From assembly GCF_015223355.1 (NCBI RefSeq), contig NZ_JADFFK010000012.1, positions 124,001-188,000 of the forward strand: a DNA stretch of 64,000 nucleotides. The letters are read 5' to 3'. Positions 2,784 to 62,932 of the stretch are shown here, in pieces. Each line of letters begins with the position of its first letter. Positions within the stretch are counted from its first letter, which is position 1. Position numbers and translations under genes: made by a program. The DNA comes from Salipiger mangrovisoli. GTDB taxonomy: Bacteria; Pseudomonadota; Alphaproteobacteria; Rhodobacterales; Rhodobacteraceae. The notes under the pieces are model-generated. The model saw only the letters and a program-made list of their open reading frames with translations, was not told where the DNA came from and ran no database searches.

Positions 2784-2878
2784 GACGGCTCCTTCGTGTC
2801 CCCGGCTGCGCTGCGCGCGGTTTTCCTCGGCTGCGATCCGCTTATAGTGCCTGCCGTTGGTAATCGAAAGTGCAGGTC

Positions 2879-3760
2879 ATGCAGGTCATTCTCCACATCG
2901 GCGCGCAGTGCACGGACGAGGACCGCCTGCTCAAGGGACTGCTGCGCAACGCCGGCGAGTTCCTCCAGGAGGGGATCGCCGTTCCCGGCCCGTCGCGCTA
3001 CCGGATGCTTCTGTCGGAAGCGATCAGCTCGCTCGGCGCGGCAGTTCCCGCGCCCGAGGCGCGCGAGGTCCTGCTGGATGCGATCCTCAGCGAAGACCCG
3101 GACAAGGTGGAGCGGCTGGTCCTCAGCCACGAGGGGCTGTTCTCGGTCCCGAAGCTGGCCCTGGATGGCGGCATGCTCTACCGCAGGGCCGAGCGCCGAC
3201 TGCAGGCGCTGGCGCGGCTGTTCGAGGGCGACGAGCTGCAGATTTTCATCGGCCTGCGCGATTTTGCCACCTGGCTGCCGGCGATGTTGCGCGCCACCCC
3301 ACATCAGGATCTGCACAGCTTCCTCTGCGGCGCCGACCCGATGCGGCTGCGCTGGTCCGACCTCGTGCTGCGCCTGCGCTCTGCGCTGCCCGGCGTGCCG
3401 ATCACCCTGTGGTGCAACGAGGACACGCCGCTGCTCTGGGGCCAGATCCTGCGCGAGGCCGCGGGGATCGATCCGGAACGCAAGATCACCGGCAGCTTCG
3501 ACATCTTCTCCGAGATCGTCAGCCCCGAGGCGATGCAGCGCTTCCGGGGCTTCCTGCGCGAGAACCCCACCGTGAGCGAGGCGCAGAAGCGCCGCGTGAT
3601 GGTCGCCTTCATGGAGAAATACGCGCTGCCCGGTGCAATGGAGGAAGAGCTCGACATGCCGGGCTGGGACGCGGCCTACGTCGATATGCTGACCGGGCTC
3701 TACGACGAGGATGTCTGGCAGATGGCGCAGCTTGACGGCGTGCGCGTACTCGCTCCCTGA
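2879..3760 (+). CDS. Conserved hypothetical protein, function unknown
   Basis: A soluble protein of 293 residues beginning MQVILHIGAQCTDEDRLL. The opening beta-strand plus HIGAQ resembles the start of sulfotransferase-like or P-loop proteins ('HIGxxKTGT'), but the P-loop residues are absent, so I do not assign a function. There is no signal peptide or membrane segment. A GTG codon at 2870 in the same frame is an alternative start; I prefer the ATG because the second strand then begins at the N terminus. It is divergent from the permease gene, with about 95 bases between them. A hairpin spans the stop codon (arms 3749-3755 and 3759-3765), followed by the 3' repeat element. Confidence 0.7.
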   Translation: MQVILHIGAQCTDEDRLLKGLLRNAGEFLQEGIAVPGPSRYRMLLSEAISSLGAAVPAPEAREVLLDAILSEDPDKVERLVLSHEGLFSVPKLALDGGMLYRRAERRLQALARLFEGDELQIFIGLRDFATWLPAMLRATPHQDLHSFLCGADPMRLRWSDLVLRLRSALPGVPITLWCNEDTPLLWGQILREAAGIDPERKITGSFDIFSEIVSPEAMQRFRGFLRENPTVSEAQKRRVMVAFMEKYALPGAMEEELDMPGWDAAYVDMLTGLYDEDVWQMAQLDGVRVLAP

Positions 3761-3780: not shown

Positions 3781-3840
3781 GCTCCGCCCCCGCCGCGCGT
3801 CGCGCGGCTCCCCCGGGATAGTTTTGCCTAGAAGAAAGGG
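3781..3840 (+). repeat. 3'-end repeat element, copy 1
   Basis: A GC-rich block with two short inverted repeats is followed by the tail CCCCCGGGATAGTTTTGCC and then TAGAAGAAAG. The same tail recurs near 18450, 53430 and 58835, and a divergent form occurs near 18530. This copy lies just 3' of the gene ending at 3760 and has the same orientation. It has the shape of a transcription terminator or 3'-UTR element. The convergent GapR-family gene ends at 3937. Confidence 0.8.
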
Positions 3841-3936: not shown

Positions 3937-4194
3937 TCACTCCATGCCGAGCGCGGCCTTGTACATCTCGAGCACCGCCTCTTCCTCGGCGATGTCATCC
4001 TTGTCGCGCTTGCGCAGGGCGATGACCTTGCGCATCACCTTGGTGTCGTAGCCGCGGCCTTTTGCCTCGGCCATGACTTCCTTCTGCTGGTCGGCGATCT
4101 CTTTCTTCTCGATCTCGAGCCGTTCGAACCGCTCGATGAACTGTTTCAGCTCGCCCGCCGCGACGCCATAGGCGCCGGAATCATTGTCCTGCAT
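3937..4194 (-). CDS. GapR-family DNA-binding protein (DUF2312)
   Basis: An 85-residue, highly charged, helical protein. The core (LKQFIERFERLEIEKKEIAD, then KGRGYD and MRKVIALRKRDKDD) matches the DUF2312/UPF0335 family. The characterised member is Caulobacter GapR, a nucleoid-associated protein that clamps overtwisted DNA ahead of replication forks and RNA polymerase and stimulates topoisomerases. Length is normal for the family. A purine-rich Shine-Dalgarno (AGGAGA) precedes the ATG. Family assignment is firm; the role is inherited from Caulobacter. Confidence 0.93.
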   Translation of the reverse strand: MQDNDSGAYGVAAGELKQFIERFERLEIEKKEIADQQKEVMAEAKGRGYDTKVMRKVIALRKRDKDDIAEEEAVLEMYKAALGME

Positions 4195-18413: not shown

Positions 18414-18475
18414 AGGAGGGGGCTCCGCCCCCGCCGCTGCGCGGCTCCCCCGGGATATTTGGACCTAGAAGAAAC
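18414..18475 (+). repeat. 3'-end repeat element, copy 2
   Basis: Starting six bases after the cytochrome stop codon, a GGGGGC/GCCCCC hairpin, a GCCGC/GCGGC hairpin and the tail CCCCCGGGATATTTGGACC then TAGAAGAAAC appear in the plus orientation, matching the upstream gene. It faces copy 3 across a gap of about 50 bases between two convergent genes. Confidence 0.82.
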
Positions 18476-18524
18476 CGCCGGGACCGAAGGCCGCGCGGGA
18501 AAGCAGAAGGGGAGCGCCATGCCC

Positions 18525-18566
18525 CCCTTCTTCTCTTGGCAAATACGCCCGCCGGAGGCGGTCCCG
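18525..18566 (-). repeat. 3'-end repeat element, copy 3 (divergent)
   Basis: On the minus strand the block CCGCCTCCGGCGGGCG is followed by TATTTGCCAAGAGAAGAAGG. The hairpin and the ATATTTGCCxAGAAGAAG-like tail resemble the other copies. It is oriented with, and located 26 bases after, the minus-strand kduD gene ending at 18592. Confidence 0.6.
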
Positions 18567-53426: not shown

Positions 53427-53488
53427 TCTTCTTCTAGGCAAAAATATCCCTGGGGGAGTCCGCGCAGCGGACGGGGGCAGAGCCCCCG
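53427..53488 (-). repeat. 3'-end repeat element, copy 4
   Basis: On the minus strand a GGGGGC/GCCCCC hairpin, a GTCCGC/GCGGAC hairpin and CCCAGGGATATTTTTGCC then TAGAAGAAG appear, the best-formed copy. It follows, in the same orientation, the minus-strand peptidase gene ending at 53559, with two perfect palindromes in between. Confidence 0.85.
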
Positions 53489-58827: not shown

Positions 58828-58890
58828 CCCTTCTTCTAGGCAGAAATATCCCGGGGGAGTCCGCCGGAGGCGGACGGGGGCAGCGCCCCC
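58828..58890 (-). repeat. 3'-end repeat element, copy 5
   Basis: On the minus strand: GGGGGC/GCCCCC hairpin, GTCCGCC/GGCGGAC hairpin, then CCCCCGGGATATTTCTGCC and TAGAAGAAG. It lies about 90 bases after, and in the orientation of, minE. Additional GC-rich inverted repeats fill the space between. Confidence 0.85.
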
Positions 58891-58977: not shown

Positions 58978-59292
58978 TCAGCCCTTTGCCGCAGCTTTCT
59001 TCTCGCCCGCCTTCTTCTCGACCGGCTTGGCCTCGGTCTTCTGGTCGACCGGCAGCTCGATGTTGATCTCGAGGCTGGAGACGTCACCGATGGAATCCAT
59101 GCGGATTCCAACGGCATCGTCACTCACCTGCACATAGCGCTTGATCGCCTCGACGATGTCGCGCTGCAGCAGCGGCAGGAAGTCGGCGCTGGGACCCGAC
59201 CCGCGCTCATGCGCGAGAAGGATCTGCAGACGCTCCTTGGCCTGGGCCGAGGATTTTGGCTTGCGGTTGAAGGTGAACCCGAAAAGATTCAT
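58978..59292 (-). CDS. Cell division topological specificity factor MinE
   Basis: A 104-residue protein. The N-terminal MNLFGFTFNRKPKSSAQAKE is the membrane/MinD-binding segment, LLAHERGSG and FLPLLQRDIVEAIKRYVQV form the conserved core, and the C-terminal tail of Lys/Ala repeats is poorly conserved. MinE displaces MinD and drives pole-to-pole oscillation. It overlaps minD by four bases. Confidence 0.96.
   Translation of the reverse strand: MNLFGFTFNRKPKSSAQAKERLQILLAHERGSGPSADFLPLLQRDIVEAIKRYVQVSDDAVGIRMDSIGDVSSLEINIELPVDQKTEAKPVEKKAGEKKAAAKG

Positions 59293-61111: not shown

Positions 61112-62932
<1,821 letters not shown>

Follow-up and report, generated by a model that had tools for sequence, protein, structure and literature searches.

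The purpose of REP-like repeats at bacterial gene ends is a long-standing question, and it is raised again by positions 18,414 to 18,566 of the window, that is, the whole 64,000-nucleotide stretch of Salipiger mangrovisoli DNA that was analysed. Here two copies of a repeated block stand between genes, and three more occur elsewhere in the window. What is the block for, and is it read in RNA or in DNA? The original prediction described one or two GC hairpins followed by conserved strings, always downstream of a gene and in its orientation, and it suggested a terminator, a stabiliser of mRNA 3′ ends, or a target of an sRNA or RNase.

The element in the window and its place behind genes

All five blocks exist in the window (Table 1), in which 59 genes cover 88% of the sequence according to a codon-usage gene finder written for the analysis. 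The string CCCGGGATATTTTTGCC occurs there four times at up to three mismatches, against 0.05 expected. The quoted strings require correction: copy 3 lacks them and reads GGGCGTATTTGCCAAGAGAAGAAG, as a member of a sister series, and copies 1 and 2 end in TAGAAGAAA, not in TAGAAGAAG. Copies 2 and 3 do face each other between convergent genes, tail to tail and 52 nt apart.

Table 1. Copies of the element in the window and the gene used as anchor for comparison across species
Feature	Position	Strand	Description
Copy 1, series A	3781..3837	+	GC hairpin region and tail 3818-3837, ATAGTT-TTG-CCT-AGAAGAAA
Copy 2, series A	18414..18474	+	Two GC hairpins and tail 18455-18474, ATATTT-GGA-CCT-AGAAGAAA; convergent gap
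Copy 3, series B	18527..18566	-	Tail 18527-18546, GTATTT-GCC-AAG-AGAAGAAG; short GCCTCCGGC palindrome
Copy 4, series A	53428..53488	-	Two GC hairpins and tail 53428-53447, ATATTT-TTG-CCT-AGAAGAAG; convergent gap
Copy 5, series A	58830..58890	-	Two GC hairpins and tail 58830-58849, ATATTT-CTG-CCT-AGAAGAAG; directly after minE
minE (PF03776)	58978..59292	-	Gene preceding copy 5; anchor for cross-species comparison

Copy 1 occupies the convergent gap between genes at 2870-3760 (+) and 3937-4194 (-). The latter is GapR-like (PF10073), and the GapR-like nucleoid proteins are a family that gathers at gene 3′ ends; its position beside the copy is probably a coincidence. A further observation in the window is a 606-aa open reading frame at 61112-62932 (-) with two stretches repeated 867 nt apart and 71-72% identical, like a protein with a duplicated domain.

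The conserved part of the element is a bipartite 20-mer, RTATTT-NNN-word-AGAnGAAG, and the adjoining GC hairpin is variable and optional. The genome of the window (6.35 Mb in 95 contigs) contains 187 exact copies in two series. Series A (96 copies) consists of one or more GC hairpins followed by GGGATATTT-NNN-CCT-AGAAGAA, and series B (91 copies) has the layout GTATTT-NNN-AAG-AGAAGAA. At up to three mismatches, GGGATATTTNNNCCTAGAAGAA gives 136 matches in this genome, 68 on each strand, whereas its reversed control gives none. In an alignment of the 103 distinct copies present in the fetched DNA, a set selected by the CCT motif, the information content reaches 2 bits per column in the tail and is 0.04-0.53 bits in the NNN columns. 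The existence of a conserved tail outside the hairpin, and thus of a recurrent 3′-end element that is more than a terminator hairpin alone, is supported.

The hairpins are real in the sense that pairing is kept while the letters change: 88 of the 103 CCT-pattern copies retain a stem of at least five pairs, in 22 spellings, against about 21 of 103 for shuffled 30-mers. Folding gives copies from the window no stability advantage over dinucleotide-shuffled sequences (z from -0.56 to +1.42). Just before the tail, 71 of 86 CCT copies and 17 of 28 AAG copies have a stem of five pairs or more, so that the hairpin is less frequent in series B but not absent from it (15 of 86 and 11 of 28, respectively, have no 5-bp stem). 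The tail is directly preceded by GATnTGC in 8 of the 28 AAG copies, and in other genera it follows non-hairpin sequence, as judged by eye. As a part of the block, the GC hairpin is thus common, yet it is neither fixed nor obligatory.

Placement was assessed in an unselected sample of the same genome, composed of contig C11:1-400000 and the window (464 kb, 88% coding), with at most one mismatch allowed in 12 fixed positions. All 42 copies found are intergenic. Convergent gaps hold 18 of them (4.5 expected from gap length), tandem gaps 20 (23.8 expected) and divergent gaps 4 (13.7 expected); the occupied gaps number 12 of 35, 16 of 166 and 3 of 61, respectively. The 11 close pairs (less than 200 nt) are all arranged tail to tail. 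In the CCT-selected set, none of the 103 copies overlaps a called gene, 43 of 56 blocks in tandem gaps are nearer to the stop codon than to the next start, and divergent gaps hold 13 of the 102 placed copies. The upstream and downstream neighbours of these copies, relative to the motif, are same/same in 34 cases, same/opposite in 33, opposite/opposite in 22 and opposite/same in 13, with one copy at an edge.

The placement behind genes repeats in a replicate genome of the genus (G014), where an unselected 400 kb (C1:1-400000) contains 36 tails. Thirty-four are intergenic and two lie in called genes, one exact and one with a mismatch; ten stand in convergent gaps (4.5 expected) and five in divergent gaps (13.0 expected). 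Copies inside genes, whose equal frequency had been named as speaking against the prediction, are absent from 464 kb in one genome and amount to 2 of 36 in the other. The close pairs of G014 are tail to tail in two cases and head to head in two. Only seven tails occur in a 400-kb stretch of a third genome (G146). At one locus (L208, G018:C8:37978-44237; L numbers label fetched loci), four copies are arranged as direct repeats at intervals of about 120 nt, in contrast to the facing pairs.

Lineage spellings and their replacement at orthologous sites

The element is widespread in the family. The wide motif RTATTTNNNNNNAGANGAAG has matches in 156 of 248 Rhodobacteraceae genomes, with a maximum of 149 copies and 0 or 1 match per strand for the reversed controls. 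The CCT pattern at three mismatches gives 0-2 matches, similar to the controls, in each of 24 genomes that belong to other families of the same class. Zero counts within the family may reflect other spellings, since in one genome (G020) the two patterns give 55 matches and a single match, respectively. A 71-base query around copy 4 retrieved 16 plasmid records, mostly weak matches, of which 14 list no feature at the matching position, one is unannotated and one has a hypothetical protein there. In the best match, from a Salipiger sp. CCB-MM3 plasmid, the sequence contains two GC hairpins together with ATATTT-TTA-TCT-AGACGAAG; the deposited annotation places a ParB-domain gene on one side of it and a convergent glycosyltransferase gene on the other. 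A phage origin was discarded, with no match among 50,697 phage records.

Words were counted in 20 genomes of the same genus, including those taken to be Alloyangia mangrovi SAOS 153D (G009) and A. pacifica KcN7-14 (G015). CCT is found 96 times in the window's genome, 147 times in A. mangrovi, 30 times in A. pacifica and twice in G010, and it is absent from the other 16. GCC occurs in G007 (57), G008 (8), G012 (91), G017 (50), G018 (57) and G019 (44) and in none of the other 14. CCA with AGAAGAA is represented by 52 copies in G016 and one each in the window's genome and G010, and TCT...AGACGAA by 13 copies in G005, 41 in G014 and 25 in A. pacifica; each is absent from 17 genomes. None of these four words occurs in 7 of the 20 congeners, and series B (AAG) is present in 12 of the 20. 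An open series-A pattern has 105 matches in G014 and 106 in G016, of which the four words account for 41 and 52, respectively. A third series, GTATTT-NNN-GAA-AGATGAA, is common in G014:C1:1-400000 (L324-L343), whose intergenic tails comprise 13 with AAG, 11 GAA variants, 5 with TCT...AGACGAA and 5 with CCA...AGAGGAA. A. pacifica carries two series-A spellings together, partly on the same contigs. One word per genome is hence ruled out by the four words of the G014 stretch and by CCT and TCT in A. pacifica; each genome draws on a small set of discrete words.

Orthologous gaps were compared by anchoring on proteins; loci of the window's genome outside C11 and the window had been chosen by the CCT pattern. 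Against A. mangrovi and A. pacifica, 56 motif-chosen queries gave 55 with matches, 37 of which span the tail, 32 without gaps. In these 32 tails the 16 fixed positions are identical in 502 of 512 comparisons, NNN in 65 of 96 and the flanks in 6363 of 7178. When lost copies are included, the values are 413 of 444 for the core, 69 of 111 for NNN and 2045 of 2647 for the rest of the gap. The word pairs of the 37 tails are CCT/CCT in 24 cases, AAG/AAG in 6, CCT/CCC in 2, CCT/AAG in 1 and CCT/GGA in 1, and the element is absent in 3. A comparison with G018 (12 tails in 9 gaps) gave GCC/CCT in four cases and GCC/AAG in one; seven tails have no aligned partner in the window's genome, where some of the gaps hold the element by eye.

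Of 32 TCT queries, 28 match the fetched DNA of the window's genome and 19 align across the tail, at 15 distinct sites. Word position 1 is C at 19 of 19 of these alignments and position 15 is A at 17 of 19. Agreement is 255 of 261 comparisons at the remaining 14 fixed positions and 23 of 57 in NNN. Where TCT sites align to the unselected C11 stretch, 8 of 9 read CCT or CCC with AGA. The 36 tails of the G014 stretch have 22 matches in the window's genome, nine of them spanning. Among these, the three CCA...AGAGGAA sites and the single TCT site all read CCT-AGAAGAA in the window's genome, the single AAG site reads AAG, and letters are altered at all three GAA-series sites (GAA-AGATGAA or a version with one letter changed); one genic chance match corresponds to no tail. 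The site behind minE illustrates the change in a region that is 88-93% identical: it reads CCT in the window's genome and in A. mangrovi, and TCT...AGACGAA in G005, G014 and A. pacifica. In G010 and G011 the element behind minE looks decayed (L273, L276). The four counted series-A words amount to three copies in G010 and none in G011, which keeps 115 series-B copies.

Copying or gene conversion is argued against by the NNN letters, which would travel along with the word, yet stay mixed while the word switches; indeed, the 41 TCT copies of G014 have 16 different NNN. The notion that NNN is a hypervariable or block-replaced unit was rejected, as the distribution of distances (13, 10, 6, 3) is close to that of independent substitution. 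Pairing of NNN with a distant letter was also rejected, the strongest correlations for CCT and GCC lying inside NNN; the top correlation of the 28 AAG copies, with a distant column, was taken as noise. The simplest account of the change in place would be selection at each site by a factor that reads the word, and the decay of the GAA series in the window's genome would fit the loss of its putative reader.

The competing account that survives best, although we consider it unlikely, is a REP- or REPIN-like repeat spread by a putative mobiliser, which would persist mainly behind genes since its presence in promoters or genes is not tolerated and whose words would be subfamilies matching successive mobilisers. 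According to excerpts of PMC3733652, REPs are short, intergenic and present in many copies, mostly in convergent or tandem gaps near stop codons, with inverted dimers and variable hairpins, and the element resembles them in location, dimers and hairpins. G014 alone contains several discrete subfamilies, copy number varies strongly within the genus, and a copy has been gained or lost in places (present in L121, missing in L076). A RAYT mobiliser was nevertheless rejected: Y1_Tnp is absent from the window's genome (5 of 14 control genomes were positive) and from all 30 genomes with high counts. It was detected in only two of the 50 family genomes searched (G131 and G136), both belonging to the 20 without matches to the wide pattern. 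The missing transposase also agrees with the CGTC REPs, which the same excerpts of PMC3733652 describe as mostly alphaproteobacterial and without a dedicated transposase. A mobiliser between copies was likewise rejected, since the eight genes found to be flanked on each side by a copy at no more than 300 nt encode a racemase, a GST, a GNAT, HrpB- and Lhr-type helicases, an OTCase, an M24 peptidase and a glutamine synthetase, none mobiliser-like. The 103 aligned copies show no conserved GTAG, which REPs of the GTAG type carry unpaired at one end of the hairpin, in columns -70 to +61, and no conserved columns for the features of CGTC REPs (CGTC/TGTC/CCTC tag, 8-9 bp stem, CCA tail). The words also switch in place while NNN is not homogenised.

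Orientation and the reading as RNA

In the window, each of the five blocks does follow a gene on its own strand. Copies 1-4, however, lie in convergent gaps, where any orientation obeys the rule, and only copy 5 is informative. In larger samples, the rule that the block is oriented with its gene is not supported. Tandem copies are oriented with and against the genes in a ratio of 11:9 in the unselected 464 kb, 34:22 in the CCT-selected set (p = 0.14), 12:14 at pattern-chosen loci of G018, 10:17 at those of A. mangrovi and A. pacifica, and 1:4 in 400 kb of G146. The ratio is 15:4 in the unselected 400 kb of G014 (p = 0.019) and 13:4 at TCT-chosen loci of G005, G014 and A. pacifica, which partly overlap with it (p = 0.049). 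The three unselected stretches pooled give 27:17 (p = 0.17). There is thus no general orientation rule; orientation varies by lineage, a same-strand preference may stand in some lineages, and the bias of G014 does not fit a strand-blind site.

The RNA readings of the original prediction lose their support together with the strand rule. In their broadest form, an RNA element of mRNA 3′ ends (a terminator, a block to exonucleases, or an RNase or sRNA target) whose palindromic hairpins could serve both orientations, they appear improbable. The 3′-end placement, the hairpins with their many spellings and the strand bias of G014 and the TCT loci agree with this account, and in some facing pairs CTTCTTCT, a possible U-rich tract, follows a GC stem between the two copies. 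On the other hand, tandem orientation is mixed in the window's genome and in the G018, A. mangrovi and A. pacifica loci, tails without a hairpin exist, and the words are left unexplained by an RNA stem. Outside the tail, terminators with a stem and TTTT are about equally common at convergent ends with and without the element (7 of 24 against 10 of 40); the figures for tandem ends are 2 of 16 and 27 of 133. A few of the terminators at element-bearing ends adjoin the tail. Substitution of the element for a terminator was discarded because these counts show no clear sign of it. At the Rfam gathering score, the window yielded only a tRNA at 994-1066, and the 301 bases around copy 4 gave no credible weak match. 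The remaining candidate, a sign for DNA uptake or self-recognition, is very unlikely: dialects around a constant core and inverted pairs are shared with the DUS dialects of Neisseriaceae, in which, as stated in excerpts of PMC3630211, few bases differ between relatives around a constant core, but 187 exact copies in 6.35 Mb are far from thousands and genes contain none of the 42 copies sampled.

A putative boundary site and its relation to known repeats

The reading preferred here, to which a probability of about one half is assigned, is that of a putative recognition site which marks gene 3′ boundaries and is read by a sequence-specific factor of the family. The unit would be the 20-bp bipartite site, usually close behind a stop codon, sometimes in a facing pair and often beside a GC hairpin. 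The putative factor would mark or guard the boundary, above all between converging genes, possibly as a roadblock against read-through or as an anchor for supercoiling or the nucleoid. Because sites serve either orientation, G014 excepted, we infer that the reader is more likely a protein that recognises duplex DNA than one that binds RNA. When its specificity changes in a lineage, selection would re-spell the sites at the contacted bases; when the reader is lost, its series would decay; and several words in a genome would correspond to several readers. Boundary marking between converging transcription units is the best guess at the function, by analogy with roles proposed for REPs in excerpts of PMC3733652. 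Some features count against the reading of sites by such a factor: about 19 fixed letters, GGG included, exceed the usual need of one transcription factor, the NNN letters are biased, and a reader of duplex DNA does not explain the hairpin. The coexistence of several words in one genome, the strand bias of G014 and its two tails in called genes also weigh against it. Motif, placement, constraint, discrete words and replacement in place are observations, whereas the reader, its nature and the boundary role belong to the interpretation.

A broader proposal, to which we give slightly less than even odds, is that of an undescribed, family-wide DNA recognition system. It would comprise putative readers and tens to about 200 gene-end sites per genome, with specificities that changed repeatedly in Rhodobacteraceae, each change re-spelling the same few bases at orthologous sites (CCT to TCT...AGACGAA or CCA...AGAGGAA among close congeners). 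In an open-access library of papers, no description of the element was found. If the proposal is correct, A. pacifica (30 CCT and 25 TCT), G014 and other genomes with more than one word would hold several readers or be in the middle of a change. It would add an abundant sequence-specific system to the chromosome biology of alphaproteobacteria and would document clearly, in nature, how a factor and its sites change together. The conserved 20-mer is sharply defined and spelled by lineage, and the large family in which it occurs includes species that are tractable in the laboratory.

Several known systems share features with the element. Like GTAG and CGTC REPs, it is intergenic, placed at 3′ ends, present in many copies, and found with inverted dimers and variable hairpins. 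It differs from both in the lack of their tags and of a fixed 8-9 bp stem, in the conserved 20-bp tail outside an optional hairpin, and in the replacement of words in place. REPINs are reportedly inverted pairs with a short spacer, lineage-specific in sequence and associated with RAYT transposases; inverted pairs and lineage-specific sequence are common to the element, which differs in that Y1_Tnp is missing from the window's genome and from 30 of 30 high-count genomes. Intrinsic terminators, too, stand at gene ends and have a GC hairpin followed by a T-containing tract, as does the element in one orientation, whereas its orientation does not generally follow that of the gene, it has 16 conserved bases outside the stem, and other terminators lie beside it. 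The DUS dialects, as excerpted in PMC3630211, resemble it in the few-base variation around a constant core, while the element has far fewer copies, stands at gene ends and can have several words per genome.
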